A stretch of 33,421 nucleotides of DNA from Acidobacteriota bacterium (lineage in GTDB: Bacteria > Acidobacteriota > UBA6911 > JACQTF01): the NCBI GenBank assembly GCA_016210925.1, contig JACQTF010000097.1:1-33421 (forward strand). Reading direction: 5' to 3'. Made by a program: the position numbers and the translations under genes. This document shows positions 6,239 to 33,421 of this stretch, piece after piece; the first letter of the stretch is position 1, and the number at the start of each line of letters is the position of its first letter. Below the pieces are notes generated by a model. It saw nothing but the letters and a program-made list of their open reading frames with translations, was not told the origin of the DNA and made no database searches.

Positions 6239-9200
6239 CTAAGAGCGATAAGGGCGAAAATCCACCAGGCAATCCTGTTTGCGGAGAAAGTTCATCAAGG
6301 CCTTATATTCCGAATCTTTCAGATTGAACAGGTGCACCAGGTTCTTGTAGCGGCCTTTGCTTTGGACCAGCCCTCTACGGACCACCTCTCGGACGCATGC
6401 ACGGGAGAGGCTGCGGTTGAGGAAAGGTTCCTTCACGACGTTCCAGAAGTTGCCGCGTTGCGACAGCAGGGTGGAGAAAAGCTCTTCGGCCTGGTGGTCC
6501 GGGGCCTCCGCAGGACTCGGGGGGGAGGGTGCGTGGGTGGGGGTTGAGACCGGCAGGTCGCGGGCATCGATCTGGTTGGAGCTGGAGGTGTAATAAGCCG
6601 CGGCGATCAAGTTTTCCAGCTCCCGAACGTTGCCGGGGAAGGTGTAGCTTTCGAGCCAGCCCTGAAGTTCCCGGGAGAGGGTCTTGGCAGTGTTGTGCTT
6701 TTCGTTGAGCTGCTTCAGGAAGTAGAAGGCGAGGAAAACGGTGTCCTGCCCCCGCTCCCGGAGCGGCGGAAGTTGAACCTGGAGGACGTTCAATCGGTAA
6801 TAGAGGTCCTCACGGAATTCCCCGCGCTGCATCATGGCCTGCAAGTTCTGGTGGGTGGCCGCGATGATGCGGACGTCGATCTTGCGACTGAGGTTTTCGC
6901 CCAGCCGGCGGACTTCTCTTTCCTGGAGGACCCGCAGGAGTTTGGCCTGGAGCGCCTTCGGCATGTTCCCGATCTCATCCAGAAACACGGTGCCCCCGTC
7001 GGCCAGCTCGAAGAGTCCCATCTTGTCGCCCCCTGCGCCCGTGAAGGCTCCCTTCCGGTGGCCGAACAATTCGCTCTCGATGAGGGGCTCAGGCAAGCCG
7101 CCGCAGTCCACGGCGACGAACCGCCTGTTCTTACGGGGACTGTGAAAGTGGATCGCGCGGGCGACCAGTTCCTTGCCGGTTCCGCTCTCGCCCAGGATGA
7201 GCACGTTGGCGTCCGCACGACTGATCGTGTCCAGGCGGCGATACAGCTCCAGCATGGGCAGGCTTTTGCCGATGATGCGGTCGTATTTGAACCGGCTCTC
7301 CACCTCCTCCTTCAAGGAAAGGTTTTCCTGGCGGAGCATCTCGTGCAGGCGAGCATTCTCCAGGGCCACGGCGAACAGGTTGCAGAGGGAGTTGAGCAGG
7401 TCAATGTCCTTCTCGGCAAACTGGCCGCGAGCGGTTCGTCGGTCCAGGTAGAGGACGCCCAGCAATTTCTCCTGGAGGCAGATGGGCAGACACAGGACCA
7501 TGCGGATTCCCAGGTCGATGATGCTGCGGCGGTCCTTCAGGCGGGGGTCCGAATCGGTATCGGTGGAGATCAGGGGCTGGAGGGATTCGGCCACGTGAGC
7601 GACGACACTGGTGCTGACTGGGGCCTCGTGGGGTTTGAGGGCTCCCATCCAGTCCCGCATCAAGCGCAACTCCGGCTGGCCGGAGGCATCCACCAGGAAG
7701 AGGGCAGCCCGCTCCCCATTGACGGTCTCCAGCACCACCTCCAAGATGCGCTCCACGAGTTCATCCAGGCTCAAGATGGAGGTGAGAATCTTACTGACCT
7801 GGAAGAGGGTCAGGAAGTGGCTGCGGTCCTGCTCCAAGCCCTGGGGATCCGGGCCGACGGGGACGGGAAAGCTTTCCAGTCTCCTTTTGACGGCGGCCTC
7901 CCGATAGGCTTCGGGCCAGGAGAGGCTGCAATCCCGAAGGCAGGCCTCGGCGCGCTTCCAGCGATCCTGGGCCGCCGGGCGGTTCTGGCGAGCTTCCAGG
8001 CTGGCCCAGAGGGCCAGCGCCTCCCATGCCCCTTCGGGGAACCGGATCCGCTCTGAGAGTTCCCAGGCCTGACGGCAGTCCTCCTCCGCTGCGCTGGCAT
8101 GTCCGTGGGACCCGGCCACCCGGGCCCGCGCGATCAGAGTCCGGACCTGGGCATGCGCGAAGTTCTTTTCCCCTGAGAGCTGAAGGGACCGCCGCAACTG
8201 GATTTCAGCTGCCTCCAGGTCGCGCATCTCCAGGCAGACCTCTGCCAGTTCCAGGGCGACCTCGGCGATCAAGAAGGGGATGCGGAGGCGGCTGCTCTCC
8301 GTGATCAGCTTCTCCAGGGCGCTGCGGGCTTCCTGGAGGTCTCCACGGCGCCGCCACCACCGGGCGCGGTGCAGATTCACCTCGATCTGCTCCCGGGGCA
8401 GCGCGGCCGCTTGAGCCGCCAGATCCAGGAACCGTTCAGCCTGCTCGAGCTGGTCCAGCTGCAGGTAGATTCGGGCCAGCCAGAGGAGATTTTGGAACCG
8501 GGCCTCGGGAGTCTGGCTCTTTTCCGCCAGCGCCAGGCTGGACTGGAACAGTTCCAGGGCTCGTGCATATTCGCCCCGGTAGTAATGGTTCTGTCCCAGG
8601 TCTTTTTCGATCTCCGACTGCAGGAATCGGTCGTGGAGGTGCAGGTCGCTGATCCGGAGGGCCTCCTGCAAAAATTCCAGGGCACGGTCGTGGAGACCCT
8701 GCTTGCAATAGGAGTTGGAGAGGTTGATGCAGGAAATGGTCATCCCGCGCCGGTCGCCGATCTTCCTCTGGATTTCCAGAGCCTGCTCGGCGCACTGGAT
8801 GGCCTCCACGAAGTCGCCCTCTTCGTAAGCCACGTTGCCCAGATTCAAACGCATCCCTGCGATCCCGTAGAGGTGTTGGAAGCCCTCGTACACCTGCAGC
8901 CCCTTCTGGAAATAGCGGCGCGATTCCTGGTGCTCCCCTTGATATTGGTAACAAGCACCCAGCATGTTGTAGATCTCGCCTGCCCAGACTCCCTTCTCCC
9001 CCAGTCCCTGGATCTCCTCGAGGCCCTGCAGGCAGTAGTGGATGGTGGTGTCGTACTCCCCCAGGCGAAAATGTTGCAGGGCCAGGGAGCCCAGCAGCTC
9101 TGCCTTCATCCGGGGATTGTCCTCGGTGCGGACCAGCTCCAGCATGTCCTTCAGAATTCGGATGGCCTCGCTGAACTCGGTCCTGCGCTCGTGAATCTTC

Positions 9201-11530
9201 GCAAGCTTCTTGCGGAGCTTGGCTTGCCTGCTCAGGTTCCTGCGCACGGAGGGCTGCTCCAGCAAGTTCGAGAAGATGCGGTAAGCCTCCTCCCCCTCTC
9301 CCAGGATCGAGAGGAGATAGCCGATCTTCTCCTGCACCTCCACTCGTCGCTCGTCCTCTTCCGGACCCAGGAGAGGAAGCGCGACCCGGTACCATCCAAG
9401 GGCTTCTTCGTGGGCATACAGGGTCCGAAGCTGTTCGGCAGCACCCAGAGCATAGCCGCGCAACTTCTCCTTGTGGTCGGCCTGGCGAAAATGATGGGCC
9501 ACTTCCAGGACGTGCTCCTTCAGCGTGCCCTCCCGCTTCAGCAAATCCTCCAGTACTGTGCCGATTCGCAGGTGGGCCCGGAGCCGGTCGTTGGTTTCCA
9601 GGGAACCGTACAACCATGATTTCATCTGCTGGTGCTTGAAATCGTAAAGCACCCGATCCTCATCCGGCCGGGCGAGGACCACCTGCCGGTGCTGGAGTTC
9701 TCCCAGGGCCGCCCGCAAGGCGCCGTCCTCCATCTCCGTGACGTCCCGCAGCCAGGCGAAGGGTGCGGGCTGGTGAAACAAGGCCAGGCTGCTGGCGACC
9801 TGCTGCGCCTCGCCCGAAAGCCGGTTCAGTCGTCGGACAAAGGCCCGGGCCACCGTGTCCGGGAGGCTGAGTTCGGAGAGCTCGCTTACATGGATTCGCC
9901 AGAGGCCCCGCGTCTTCGCCAGGGTTCGGTCCGCCACCAGCGACTTCATGCACTCTTCCACATAGAACGGGTTCCCTTCCGTCTCCCGATACACAAGATC
10001 CAGGAAGTCCCCAGGAAAGGCGCACCTCCCGAACATGGATCGGATCAGGCGGAAGGTGTTGTCCCGGTCCAGGGGTTCCAGGACTAGCTCCTGCAGGATT
10101 CCTTCCGCCTTGTTGACCTGGATGAACCGGGACAGACGGGGCGTACTTTCCTCTTCCCGGTAGGTTGCGCAGACCAGGAGGGCGGAGCTCTTCAAGACAT
10201 TGGCGATGTACTGGAGCAATTCCATGGACAGCTCATCGGCCTGGTGCAGGTCGTGCAGGTGCAGGATGAGCGGGCGGTGGGAGGCCTCCCGGGCCAGCCA
10301 TCCGGCCGCCTGAACCAGCAGGTTCTCCCTTTCGCCGCGAAGCACAGGGACCGCTGGGATGGAGGGGGGGGAGATCCAGCTCGCAAGCTGTTCCGGCACC
10401 CCGGCTTCGGGGCGCGGATCGCCCTGTGCACTGCGCAGGAGGTAATGGAAGATCTCCCGGAATGCGCTGAAGGTGTTGCCCGCATAGCAACTCCCCACGT
10501 AAACGGACAAGCCCCGCAGCTGGCCAAGGATCTGCATTTCCTGCAAGAGCCGGCTCTTGCCCACACCGCTCTCACCCGAGATGAGCAGGACCTTTCCGGT
10601 GCCCTCCTCCTGGAGCCGATCCAATTCCTCCCGCAACAGCTTCATCTCCCGGATCCGGCCGACGAAGTGGCCGCTAAATACGTAGCTCTCCTCCGTGGCC
10701 CGGGTCTCCAGCTCAAAGCGGGTCCCCAATCCCGCGTTCAGGGCCTCGATCACCTCGTTGGCACCGGCGAAGCGATCCTCAGGACGCTTGGCCACCAGCT
10801 TCAGGATCAGTTCCTCCAGGGCAGAAGAGAGCCCCTCCCGGAAAAACCCCGGCCGCTCGGGAAGGACATTGATCTGCTTTTGTACCAAATAGGCCACATC
10901 TCTCTCCTCGAACGGCAAACGCCGAGCCACCACCTGGTAGAGCACCATGCCCAGGGCGTACAGGTCCGCACGGTGATCGGTGGGAGTTCCCAACAAGATC
11001 TCTGGAGCACAGTAGTGCAGAGTCCCGGAGATACCGGACGACGGACGCCAGGGGAGCATCCGTGCCAGGCCGAAATCCACCAGCTTCACCCGGGGACCCG
11101 GGCCTTCTCGCACCAGGATGTTCTCGGGCTTTAGGTCTCCGTGCAGGACTCCCTTGGAATGGATGTATTCCAGGGCGCGACACACTTCGACGATGAGGGG
11201 GTAAAGGTCGTCCAAAGGCGCGGACTCCGTGGAAAAAAAGAGGTCCTTTCCTTCTACATATTCGGCGGTGAAAAAGGGGGTCTCGGCTTTGCCCATGACC
11301 CCGAAGTCGTGCACCGCGACCAAATTGGGATGCCGGAGTTCCTTAAGAAAGCGAAATTCCTGAGCGAAACCGTCGCGCAGCCGCTTGCCGGGCGAAAGCT
11401 GAGAGAACTTCTTGAGGGTGATCGGCCGGTCGTCGCTCCAGGTATCTTCCACCAGGTACACGACACCCGTGCTGCCGCGGCCCAGCCGCCGCACGATCCG
11501 GTAGCGTCCTTGAATCAGGCCTGGCTTCAT
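6239..11530 (-). CDS. Ser/Thr protein kinase – AAA ATPase – TPR – GAF – sigma54 activator fusion protein
   Basis: 1763 residues from the ATG at 11530. Domains in order: a Hanks-type kinase (about 8–270) with glycine loop GRGSTGVV, catalytic loop HGDLKPEN (about 130; Gly in place of the usual Arg), DFG and APE; an AAA_16/MalT-like ATPase (about 290–550) with Walker A GESGVGKS near 317; a long TPR region (about 680–1190); a GAF sensor (about 1247–1410); and a sigma54-interaction AAA+ domain (about 1425–1660) with GESGTGKE near 1443 and an intact ESELFGHRKGAFTGA near 1490, so it should contact sigma54 RNA polymerase. The C-terminal ~65 residues (VREVVRRGL … LMNFLRKQ) look like a DNA-binding or effector tail rather than a typical Fis helix-turn-helix. 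There is no membrane segment. No Shine-Dalgarno motif precedes the ATG; an in-frame TTG at 11566 lies inside the palindrome. Signal unknown. Confidence 0.93.
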   Translation of the reverse strand: MKPGLIQGRYRIVRRLGRGSTGVVYLVEDTWSDDRPITLKKFSQLSPGKRLRDGFAQEFRFLKELRHPNLVAVHDFGVMGKAETPFFTAEYVEGKDLFFSTESAPLDDLYPLIVEVCRALEYIHSKGVLHGDLKPENILVREGPGPRVKLVDFGLARMLPWRPSSGISGTLHYCAPEILLGTPTDHRADLYALGMVLYQVVARRLPFEERDVAYLVQKQINVLPERPGFFREGLSSALEELILKLVAKRPEDRFAGANEVIEALNAGLGTRFELETRATEESYVFSGHFVGRIREMKLLREELDRLQEEGTGKVLLISGESGVGKSRLLQEMQILGQLRGLSVYVGSCYAGNTFSAFREIFHYLLRSAQGDPRPEAGVPEQLASWISPPSIPAVPVLRGERENLLVQAAGWLAREASHRPLILHLHDLHQADELSMELLQYIANVLKSSALLVCATYREEESTPRLSRFIQVNKAEGILQELVLEPLDRDNTFRLIRSMFGRCAFPGDFLDLVYRETEGNPFYVEECMKSLVADRTLAKTRGLWRIHVSELSELSLPDTVARAFVRRLNRLSGEAQQVASSLALFHQPAPFAWLRDVTEMEDGALRAALGELQHRQVVLARPDEDRVLYDFKHQQMKSWLYGSLETNDRLRAHLRIGTVLEDLLKREGTLKEHVLEVAHHFRQADHKEKLRGYALGAAEQLRTLYAHEEALGWYRVALPLLGPEEDERRVEVQEKIGYLLSILGEGEEAYRIFSNLLEQPSVRRNLSRQAKLRKKLAKIHERRTEFSEAIRILKDMLELVRTEDNPRMKAELLGSLALQHFRLGEYDTTIHYCLQGLEEIQGLGEKGVWAGEIYNMLGACYQYQGEHQESRRYFQKGLQVYEGFQHLYGIAGMRLNLGNVAYEEGDFVEAIQCAEQALEIQRKIGDRRGMTISCINLSNSYCKQGLHDRALEFLQEALRISDLHLHDRFLQSEIEKDLGQNHYYRGEYARALELFQSSLALAEKSQTPEARFQNLLWLARIYLQLDQLEQAERFLDLAAQAAALPREQIEVNLHRARWWRRRGDLQEARSALEKLITESSRLRIPFLIAEVALELAEVCLEMRDLEAAEIQLRRSLQLSGEKNFAHAQVRTLIARARVAGSHGHASAAEEDCRQAWELSERIRFPEGAWEALALWASLEARQNRPAAQDRWKRAEACLRDCSLSWPEAYREAAVKRRLESFPVPVGPDPQGLEQDRSHFLTLFQVSKILTSILSLDELVERILEVVLETVNGERAALFLVDASGQPELRLMRDWMGALKPHEAPVSTSVVAHVAESLQPLISTDTDSDPRLKDRRSIIDLGIRMVLCLPICLQEKLLGVLYLDRRTARGQFAEKDIDLLNSLCNLFAVALENARLHEMLRQENLSLKEEVESRFKYDRIIGKSLPMLELYRRLDTISRADANVLILGESGTGKELVARAIHFHSPRKNRRFVAVDCGGLPEPLIESELFGHRKGAFTGAGGDKMGLFELADGGTVFLDEIGNMPKALQAKLLRVLQEREVRRLGENLSRKIDVRIIAATHQNLQAMMQRGEFREDLYYRLNVLQVQLPPLRERGQDTVFLAFYFLKQLNEKHNTAKTLSRELQGWLESYTFPGNVRELENLIAAAYYTSSSNQIDARDLPVSTPTHAPSPPSPAEAPDHQAEELFSTLLSQRGNFWNVVKEPFLNRSLSRACVREVVRRGLVQSKGRYKNLVHLFNLKDSEYKALMNFLRKQDCLVDFRPYRS

Positions 11531-11541
11531 AGAAGAGCGGG

Positions 11542-11583
11542 AGGGACAGACTACCGAATTGGCCAATTCGGTAGTCTGTCCCT
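11542..11583. repeat. 42-bp perfect palindrome at the start of the kinase–sigma54 activator gene
   Basis: AGGGACAGACTACCGAATTGG (11542–11562) is followed directly by its exact reverse complement (11563–11583), with no spacer. The GGGACAGAC…GTCTGTCCC ends resemble the REP-like palindromes that, from memory, accompany RAYT (Y1) transposases in several phyla. It lies between the predicted transcription start (about 11588) and the ATG at 11530. Confidence 0.93.
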
Positions 11584-11594
11584 TCAGGGCGCAA

Positions 11595-11623
11595 ACTATA
11601 GTACAGGGGTGAGGGGATGTAAA
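11595..11623 (-). promoter_or_regulatory. Sigma70 promoter for the kinase–sigma54 activator gene
   Basis: On the minus strand, TTTACA (11618–11623), a 17-bp spacer and TATAGT (11595–11600) each match 5 of 6 consensus bases. The predicted start is about 11588, so nearly the whole leader is the palindrome. The gene can therefore be expressed independently of the zinc-finger gene upstream. Confidence 0.6.
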
Positions 11624-11685: not shown

Positions 11686-11868
11686 TCAGGAGGGAAAGAT
11701 ACGCAGATCAAGACCTTCCTCGCCGTAGAGCTGGTGCAACTCCCTAAGAATCTCCACGACATGACTGCAGATGATGCAGCTCCTGAGATGCCCCTGAAGC
11801 CACTGGTAGGCCTCAAAGTCCAACTGATCCTCGAAGTAGCCAGCGATCTTGCCGGAATCGCACTCCAT
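11686..11868 (-). CDS. Small zinc-finger protein, anti-sigma-factor-like (zf-HC2 type)
   Basis: 60 residues. Cys3 near the start and the HLRSCIICS motif (about 27–35; His-x3-Cys-x2-Cys) are the spaced ligands of the zf-HC2/ZAS domain that begins many anti-sigma factors. The intervening YFEDQLDFEAYQWLQGHL matches the usual helix pair. There is no transmembrane segment or effector domain, so it is a stand-alone cytoplasmic module that may bind a partner protein. The ATG at 11868 is preferred (GAGG 7 nt upstream); the open frame continues upstream to 11985 without a site. It lies 155 bp upstream of the kinase–sigma54 activator gene, same strand, with a sigma54-type promoter in front. Confidence 0.7.
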   Translation of the reverse strand: MECDSGKIAGYFEDQLDFEAYQWLQGHLRSCIICSHVVEILRELHQLYGEEGLDLRIFPS

Positions 11869-11910
11869 GGGTCGACCTCGCCGCCCGGGTCCACCCGATA
11901 CGGCTTCCAA

Positions 11911-12521: not shown

Positions 12522-12524
12522 TTT

Positions 12525-12607
12525 GAAACCTGAAACCTGAGACCTGAGCCGTAGAACTGAAGGAACCTCTTGGTTTCAGGTCTCAGGTCTCGGGTCTCAG
12601 AGTTTCG
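12525..12607. repeat. Heptamer inverted-repeat element, GAAACCT family (rpoA–rplQ)
   Basis: The left arm (12525–12548) has tandem GAAACCT/GAGACCT heptamers. The right arm (about 12572–12607) has the complementary GGTTTCA/GGTCTCA units. A centre of about 23 bp separates them. It fills almost the whole spacer. Confidence 0.9.
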
Positions 12608-14372: not shown

Positions 14373-14439
14373 AAACCCGAAACTCTGAAACCTGAGACTC
14401 GAAACTCCTGGTTTCTGCGGTCTCAGGTTTCAGGTTTCT
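14373..14439. repeat. Heptamer inverted-repeat element, GAAACCT family (rpsK–rpsD)
   Basis: The left arm has AAACCCG/AAACTCT/GAAACCT units. The right arm is GGTCTCAGGTTTCAGGTTTC (14420–14439). It lies between the rpsK stop and the rpsD ribosome-binding site. Confidence 0.88.
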
Positions 14440-19957: not shown

Positions 19958-20040
19958 AAAACTTGAAACCCGAAACCTGAAACCTCCGCACAACCCTTTC
20001 CGAGTGGTTTCAGGTCTCAGGTTTTACAGTTTCAGGTTTC
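19958..20040. repeat. Heptamer inverted-repeat element, GAAACCT family (rpsE–rplR)
   Basis: The left arm is AACTTGAAACCCGAAACCTG followed by AAACCT. The right arm (20006–20040) is GGTTTCAGGTCTCAGGTTTT plus a further unit. It ends a few bases from the rplR stop codon. Confidence 0.9.
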
Positions 20041-20406: not shown

Positions 20407-20409
20407 TTC

Positions 20410-20503
20410 AAACCCGAAACCTGAAACCCGAAACCTGAAACCCAAAAGCTCAAACTTTTTGGCGATAGTTTTAGGTTTCAGGTTTCAGAGTTTCAGGTTT
20501 AAA
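20410..20503. repeat. Heptamer inverted-repeat element, GAAACCT family (rplR–rplF)
   Basis: The left arm has six heptamers (AAACCCG AAACCTG AAACCCG AAACCTG AAACCCA and a degraded unit). The right arm is AGGTTTCAGGTTTCAGAGTT plus TCAGGTTT. It spans nearly the whole 99-bp spacer. Confidence 0.92.
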
Positions 20504-21077: not shown

Positions 21078-21171
21078 GACCTGAAAACCTAAAATCTGAA
21101 ACCCAAAACCTGAAACTTGAAACCTGAAACTCCAGAACCCGAGGAGGATGGTTTTGAGTTTTAGGTTTCAG
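21078..21171. repeat. Heptamer inverted-repeat element, GAAACCT family (rplF–rpsH)
   Basis: A long left arm (21078–21133) has about seven variant heptamers (AAAACCT, AAAATCT, GAAACCC, AAAACCT, GAAACTT, GAAACCT, GAAACTC). A shorter right arm (21150–21171) reads GGTTTTGAGTTTTAGGTTTC. The arms are unequal in length. Confidence 0.88.
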
Positions 21172-21851: not shown

Positions 21852-21942
21852 AAAACCCAAAACCCAAAACCTGAAACTTGAAACCCAAAACCCAGATGTC
21901 ATGCTACCTAGTTTTAGGTTTCAGGTTTTAGAGTTTTAGGTT
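21852..21942. repeat. Heptamer inverted-repeat element, GAAACCT family (rpsN–rplE)
   Basis: The left arm has AAAACCC AAAACCC AAAACCT GAAACTT GAAACCC AAAACCC units in perfect 7-bp register. The right arm has GTTTTAGGTTTCAGGTTTTA and one more unit. The centre is about 17 bp. Confidence 0.92.
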
Positions 21943-22502: not shown

Positions 22503-22589
22503 AAACCTGAAACTCTGAAACCTAAAACCTGAAACGTGAAACTGAGAGCTGAAAGCCAACCGTTAAGTGCCCTTAGTTTCAGGTTTCAC
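22503..22589. repeat. Heptamer inverted-repeat element, GAAACCT family (rplE–rplX)
   Basis: A left arm of about seven units (AAACCTG, AAACTCT, GAAACCT, AAAACCT, GAAACGT, GAAACTG and degraded copies). A short right arm, AGTTTCAGGTTTCACT, reaches the rplX stop codon. The asymmetry suggests decay of one side. Confidence 0.88.
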
Positions 22590-26653: not shown

Positions 26654-26738
26654 AAAACCTGAAACCCGAAACCTGAAACCTGAAACTCGGAACCCTCTCT
26701 CAGAGGTTTTAGGTTTCAGGTTTCAAAGTTTCAGGTTT
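26654..26738. repeat. Heptamer inverted-repeat element, GAAACCT family (rplB–rplW)
   Basis: The left arm has AAAACCT GAAACCC GAAACCT GAAACCT GAAACTC in register. The right arm has AGGTTTTAGGTTTCAGGTTT and a further unit. One of the cleanest copies. Confidence 0.93.
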
Positions 26739-27679: not shown

Positions 27680-27764
27680 TGAAACTCGAAACCCGAAACC
27701 TCAAACCTGAAATGCAGAACGGCTAGTCTTAGGTTTCAGGTTTCGAGTTTCGGGTTTTGGGTTT
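27680..27764. repeat. Heptamer inverted-repeat element, GAAACCT family, overlapping the end of rplC
   Basis: The left arm (27680–27712) has GAAACTC GAAACCC GAAACCT CAAACCT units. The right arm (27729–27764) has AGGTTTC AGGTTTC GAGTTTC GGGTTTT GGGTTT and is translated: it contains the rplC stop codon (27729–27731) and encodes its last residues. Confidence 0.93.
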
Positions 27765-28808: not shown

Positions 28809-28887
28809 AACCAAACCCGAAACCCAAAACCTGAAATCTGAAACCTTTGGTCTCAGCTTGAGAGTTTGAGGTTTCAGGTTTCAGGTT

Positions 28888-28889
<2 letters not shown>
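28809..28889. repeat. Heptamer inverted-repeat element, GAAACCT family (rpsJ–tuf)
   Basis: The left arm has AAACCCG AAACCCA AAACCTG AAATCTG AAACCTT. The right arm is GAGGTTTCAGGTTTCAGGTT and runs into the tuf stop codon: the TGA at 28888–28890 belongs to the outermost TGAAACC unit. Confidence 0.92.
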
Positions 28890-30072
<1,183 letters not shown>

Positions 30073-33319: not shown

Positions 33320-33421
33320 GCGCGCGCGGTACAAGGGGCGTGCGACATATTTGTGGGTGGAGAAATCAACCAATAGCTCGGGTTTCCCAAAATTCTTCCC
33401 AACGCGCACTCAACTGGCAAC

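Follow-up and report, generated by a model that had tools for sequence, protein, structure and literature searches.

A 42-bp perfect palindrome in the leader of a sigma54-activator regulator gene of an Acidobacteriota bacterium is, judging from sequence comparison, very probably a non-autonomous mini-element, consisting of the head-to-head fused ends of a TIRYT/TIRtron-kind Y1 transposon without its transposase gene. The palindrome lies in a stretch of DNA of 33,421 nucleotides that was analyzed as a whole (here called the window). This reading draws on direct observation of a dispersed palindrome family, of covariation between arms, of family repeats flanking a Y1 gene in relatives, of a transposase remnant behind comM, and of the absence of the palindrome before three homologues of the regulator. 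An odd palindrome is thereby made traceable, with its transposon ends, its likely comM source, and its orphan copies all legible in the DNA. The case bears on the origin of short bacterial palindromes from Y1 transposons, which earlier work did not settle (PMC3733652), and it warns that a perfect palindrome adjoining a promoter is not necessarily an operator.

Palindrome and leader of the regulator gene

The regulator gene (6239..11530, minus strand) encodes a protein of about 1760 residues with Ser/Thr kinase, AAA_16, TPR, GAF, and sigma54-activator domains, and the N-terminus of a homologue supports the ATG at 11530 as its start. In the G002 homologue (41% identity), the ATG lies equally far before the conserved RY that opens the kinase domain (MSTLMLDKRY / MKPGLIQGRY), and this match favors the ATG over a TTG within the palindrome as the start codon. 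The preliminary description had placed a loop-free palindrome with 21 bp per arm between a sigma70-like promoter and this ATG, and the sequence bears out that layout. The palindrome (AGGGACAGACTACCGAATTGG / CCAATTCGGTAGTCTGTCCCT, 11542..11583) is built from arms at 11542-11562 and 11563-11583, each of 21 nt, which are 100% complementary with a spacer of 0. Such exact pairing is far beyond chance, as the longest spacerless arm in 100 Markov-resampled windows was 11 and the runner-up in the real window was 9. Each arm contains a conserved core, recognized by its recurrence in the genome and by alignment, with GGGACAGACTAC lying on the plus strand at 11543..11554 in the left arm and on the minus strand at 11571..11582 in the right arm. 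A site without the insertion would be predicted to read GCGCCCTGA|CCCGCTCTTCTATG, where the exact junction may shift by about 1 base.

The promoter of the kinase gene, TTTACA-N17-TATAGT (minus strand, 11623..11595), was identified purely by its match to the consensus (10/12 matches). It is the sole such site in the 241-bp region, for which shuffles gave 0.0. Across 15 kb, the number of such sites does not exceed chance (2 found versus 2.8 expected), so that the main support for the promoter is its position. On the minus strand, the promoter is followed by a predicted start near 11588, from which the palindrome would occupy +6 to +47, and then by an 11-nt spacer (CCCGCTCTTCT, 11531..11541), in which no Shine-Dalgarno motif occurs, and the ATG (11530-11528). 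The very stable leader stem that had been proposed is likewise recovered as a predicted fold, with a free energy of -43.9 kcal/mol and a z score of -5.1 for the leader region as RNA. An insertion just past the promoter would fit a promoter that is native and a leader that became longer. In an observation apart from the palindrome, a small ORF upstream of the regulator (11697-11870, minus strand) carries an H-x3-C-x2-C motif (HLRSCIICSHV) and appears to resemble a zinc-finger anti-sigma domain.

This geometry would suit an inserted palindrome that has been co-opted as an RNA control, in which the 5' stem would shield the mRNA or hinder ribosome entry. The stem ends 11 nt before an ATG that has no Shine-Dalgarno motif, its predicted fold is strong, and a stem so near the 5' end may make the mRNA more stable and leave little room at the ribosome site. 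However, other copies of the palindrome sit where a leader function is impossible, and we consider such co-option possible but rather unlikely here; it concerns present function and is compatible with an origin from transposon ends. The hairpin is also strong and intergenic, as a transcription terminator would be, and the assembly consists of 240 contigs, a fragmentation that could invite an assembly artefact. Yet no intrinsic terminator, with a GC-rich stem and then a T run, was found at the palindrome, the T run being absent on both sides, and the palindrome recurs independently in many contigs as well as in other species, which speaks against an artefact, so that either explanation is scarcely credible. 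No Rfam family was matched.

Dispersed copies and covarying arms

A search of the genome for further copies, which the preliminary description had suggested, returned 29 arm matches versus 7 with the reversed control. About 17 loci were judged real, and at these GGGACAGACTAC recurs in 12 palindromes, of which 1 is interrupted, and in 5 arms that are single or degenerate; the matches in C85 and C205 lack a second arm, look like chance, and were rejected. Palindrome length varies among copies from about 38 to 94 bp. Neighboring genes converge on the copy in C30 and C38 and diverge from it in C99 and C225, and further copies lie in tandem gaps and inside operons, as judged from gene calls made with a codon-position GC heuristic rather than a trained gene finder. 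A stop or start codon is often abutted by a copy. In C38, both convergent genes end on stop codons contributed by the two arms (...ETDY* and ...GTDY*), and in C239, an apparently ybbR-like gene is preceded by a gap that the element occupies, 9 nt from the ATG. Control of the regulator may have been taken over by the palindrome, as the preliminary description had raised, but nothing indicates that the copies single out promoters or this regulator gene.

These positions bear directly on whether the palindrome is a native duplex operator, at which a repressor or activator would bind GGGACAGACTAC...GTAGTCTGTCCC before the regulator and before other genes of a regulon. Perfect symmetry, a position just past the promoter, a conserved 12-bp core in about 17 copies, and the two copies between divergent genes are all in keeping with an operator. 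Copies that adjoin the ends as well as the starts of genes, whatever the orientation, nevertheless fit a promoter-operator reading badly, as do those at convergent 3' ends and inside operons, the variable length of the element, and the identity of its sequence with transposon ends. Moreover, an operator would be conserved with its gene, whereas a look at upstream regions, a comparison also raised in the preliminary description, gave the opposite picture: the palindrome is absent before the regulator homologues in G002, G011, and G016 (3/3), which are distant (29-41% identity), with only the one in G002 likely to be an ortholog. A native operator is therefore highly unlikely.

The arms of the family change together. 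In an alignment of 10 palindromes, 12 pair positions vary on both sides and 0 vary one-sidedly. Cells with two-sided change number 30, compared with 12 in shuffles, and 0/500 shuffles attain 30; pairing is 90% in the true register versus 36-47% in slid registers. The variable pairs occur outside the conserved core and, towards the center, inside it, and such pairwise change is unneeded for an operator. As the simplest reading, we infer that one arm templates the other in repair or template switching. A perfect palindrome would be maintained in this way, through a hairpin or template-switch repair, and arm templating would explain why arms differ among copies while still pairing. The cores differ widely among copies, so that a single repeat would be no more than a putative ancestor of them all.

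Separately, one family palindrome is apparently split by an insertion sequence, whose ends read GGGTGTGCGACAAATTTGTGGG and whose target duplication, CAGGGGCAC, measures 9 bp. Its parts lie at the end of G000 C68 (L009) and the start of C221 (L025), and these two contigs probably join at the split palindrome. A related insertion-sequence end with 2 mismatches is present near the contig end in the window (33338-33357), and a copy of the related insertion sequence of about 1.85 kb lies at G000 C37:7560-9410.

Y1 transposons with family ends and the comM locus

Terminal inverted repeats with the family sequence flank a Y1 gene in another genome of the class, where exact 32-bp inverted repeats (GAAAATATGGGGACAGACTACCCGTTCACCTA, containing GGGACAGACTAC) enclose a gene for a 225-aa protein at G037:C304; one terminal repeat is also found at C171 of the window's own genome. 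G035 contains dispersed palindromes with the same arms as the G037 repeats (GGGGACAGACTACCCGTTCACCTCATTT), so that autonomous-looking and fused-end forms both occur in the class. The Y1 protein matches PF01797 with 45.6 bits, and the HUH motif and the catalytic tyrosine, as NHxH and YVExNP, are present in 7/7 aligned members; by Pfam, the 225-aa protein has the Y1_Tnp domain only. Single-stranded GGGGACAGACTAC is a putative substrate of a protein of this type. Throughout the phylum, further related Y1 transposases come with GGGGACA repeats that are likewise related, and the repeats of related Y1 genes include GGGGACAGGCTACTCAA (G015), GGGGACAGTCACCACCGTCC (G011), and GGGGACGCCTCACTCGTTCCC (G006). 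In G011, GGGGACAGTCACC is common to a dispersed palindrome and the repeats of that genome's own Y1 gene.

Palindromes of the pattern GGGGACAG-N10-40-CTGTCCCC were detected in 17 of the 38 class genomes (reversed control in 1), with interiors that differ between lineages, and Acidobacteria bacterium records contain exact matches to the palindromes of G035 and G026. The nearest genomes compared share only the class with the window genome. The pattern was not found in viral contigs, in which single arms gave 43 scattered, uninformative matches, and a plasmid search gave no real match.

ComM is a DNA-processing helicase of natural transformation. At C171, the comM stop is followed by GGGGGACAGACTACGAATTGG and then by an ATG with MARLPRVVVPRL, 53 bp past the GGGG, after which the frame ends; what is left there is one terminal repeat, GGGGACAGACTACGAATTGG, and the first 12 transposase codons. 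The order is the same in G037, with comM, the repeat, 50 bp, and MARLRRVVAPKL. A Y1 gene lies directly behind comM in G037, G016, G026, and G019, whereas in G006 it follows comM after about 1 kb; in G007, a Y1 gene is probably located behind comM as well, with two contigs apparently breaking inside the gene. RAYT-like Y1 loci linked to comM (L199, L200, L201, and L220; also L210 and L218) were noted in several families of the class, and no such linkage was seen outside the class among the phylum loci compared. Within the literature covered, consisting of article texts largely from outside subscription journals, no published link of RAYT with comM was found. When arms were compared with the C171 repeat, that of the window, GGGACAGACTACCGAATTGG, matched it best, by a small margin over the next.

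The preliminary description had suggested a search for a Y1 (RAYT) transposase in the genome, and this was borne out in part. No intact transposase of this clade was found in the window's own genome (best identity, 32%; assembly about 90% complete, in 240 contigs), and the 12-codon remnant behind comM represents it there. Other Y1 genes of the same genome were rejected as sources. Those in C26 (L031) and C179 (L032) are flanked by palindromic repeats, AGGGCACG(G/C)C..., that belong to a different palindrome family with further copies in the genome, and that in C82 has no flanking repeats.

We propose that a RAYT-like Y1 (HUH-tyrosine) transposon contributed both of its terminal inverted repeats, which would have joined head to head, and that a copy of the product would have come to lie downstream of the regulator's promoter and ahead of its start codon. 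The transposon once located behind comM, now reduced to the remnant at C171, is a fairly probable source of the palindrome on the similarities described above. More tentatively, in a scenario that in its entirety is somewhat less likely than not, a Y1 single-strand transposase inherited with the chromosome just behind comM may have seeded palindromes that stay perfect because one arm is copied from the other and that outlived the transposase, one of them in the leader of the regulator.

Relation to known repeat families

TIRYT genes are flanked by GGGGWSAS repeats, have self-complementary and dimeric repeat families, and include a well-defined acidobacterial group (Di Nocera et al. 2013, PMC3733652). 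Most TIRYTs with GGGG[AT][CG]A[CG] repeats belong to TnpA-Y1 subclass 2.1, which has a C-terminal HTH (Quentin et al. 2018, PMC6006769). The family described here resembles TIRYT/TIRtrons in that a Y1 gene lies between long terminal inverted repeats, GGGGACAG fits GGGGWSAS, some repeats are self-complementary, and dispersed copies are both single and dimeric. It differs in that the window's own genome keeps only the 12-codon gene remnant and that most copies are fused head to head, with cores that vary but pair. In addition, the window copy starts with AGGG rather than the GGGG of the published motif, its outer end being AGGGACAG, with a matching T on the opposite arm, where most copies have GGGGACAG. 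Unlike members of subclass 2.1, the G037 protein has no C-terminal HTH by Pfam, and it may belong to another subclass. The element most likely belongs with the TIRYT/TIRtron repeats already published. This particular repeat sequence was not found in the text of the papers covered, and a literature search for GGGACAGAC gave unrelated matches.

The preliminary description had likened the ends of the palindrome to RAYT-associated REP sequences and suggested that it was mobile. The palindrome is indeed dispersed, probably mobile, linked to Y1 genes, and missing before three homologues of the regulator; its assignment to canonical REPs did not hold. With REP/REPIN sequences (RAYT, TnpA-REP), it shares the form of short extragenic palindromes that are likely non-autonomous and linked to an HUH-tyrosine transposase, and the presence of GTAG in each arm would also suit a canonical GTAG-tagged REP mobilized by a classical RAYT. 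By definition (PMC6006769), however, the hairpin of such a REP has GT[AG]G as an unpaired 5' foot, whereas here GTAG/CTAC is paired inside a long perfect stem and the associated gene bears terminal inverted repeats instead, making a canonical REP very improbable. MITEs such as NEMIS and Nezha are comparable in being internally deleted transposons with inverted ends that are often gene-adjacent and co-transcribed. They differ from the present elements, which are about 40 bp long, have almost no interior, and are linked to Y1 genes, with no target duplication noticed.

The window also contains other repeats. Between 12524 and 28890, many short arrays of 7-base units (AAACCTG and kin, or TCAGTTGTCAG and kin) face one another as inverted repeats and are apparently intergenic. 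Examples lie at 12524-12600, 14373-14433, 19959-20040, 20408-20500, 21079-21139, 21852-21942, 22503-22586, 26655-26738, 27681-27764, and 28827-28890. The sequence AACCTGAAAC occurs 23 times in the window, whereas 60 kb taken from other loci of this genome contain it once.
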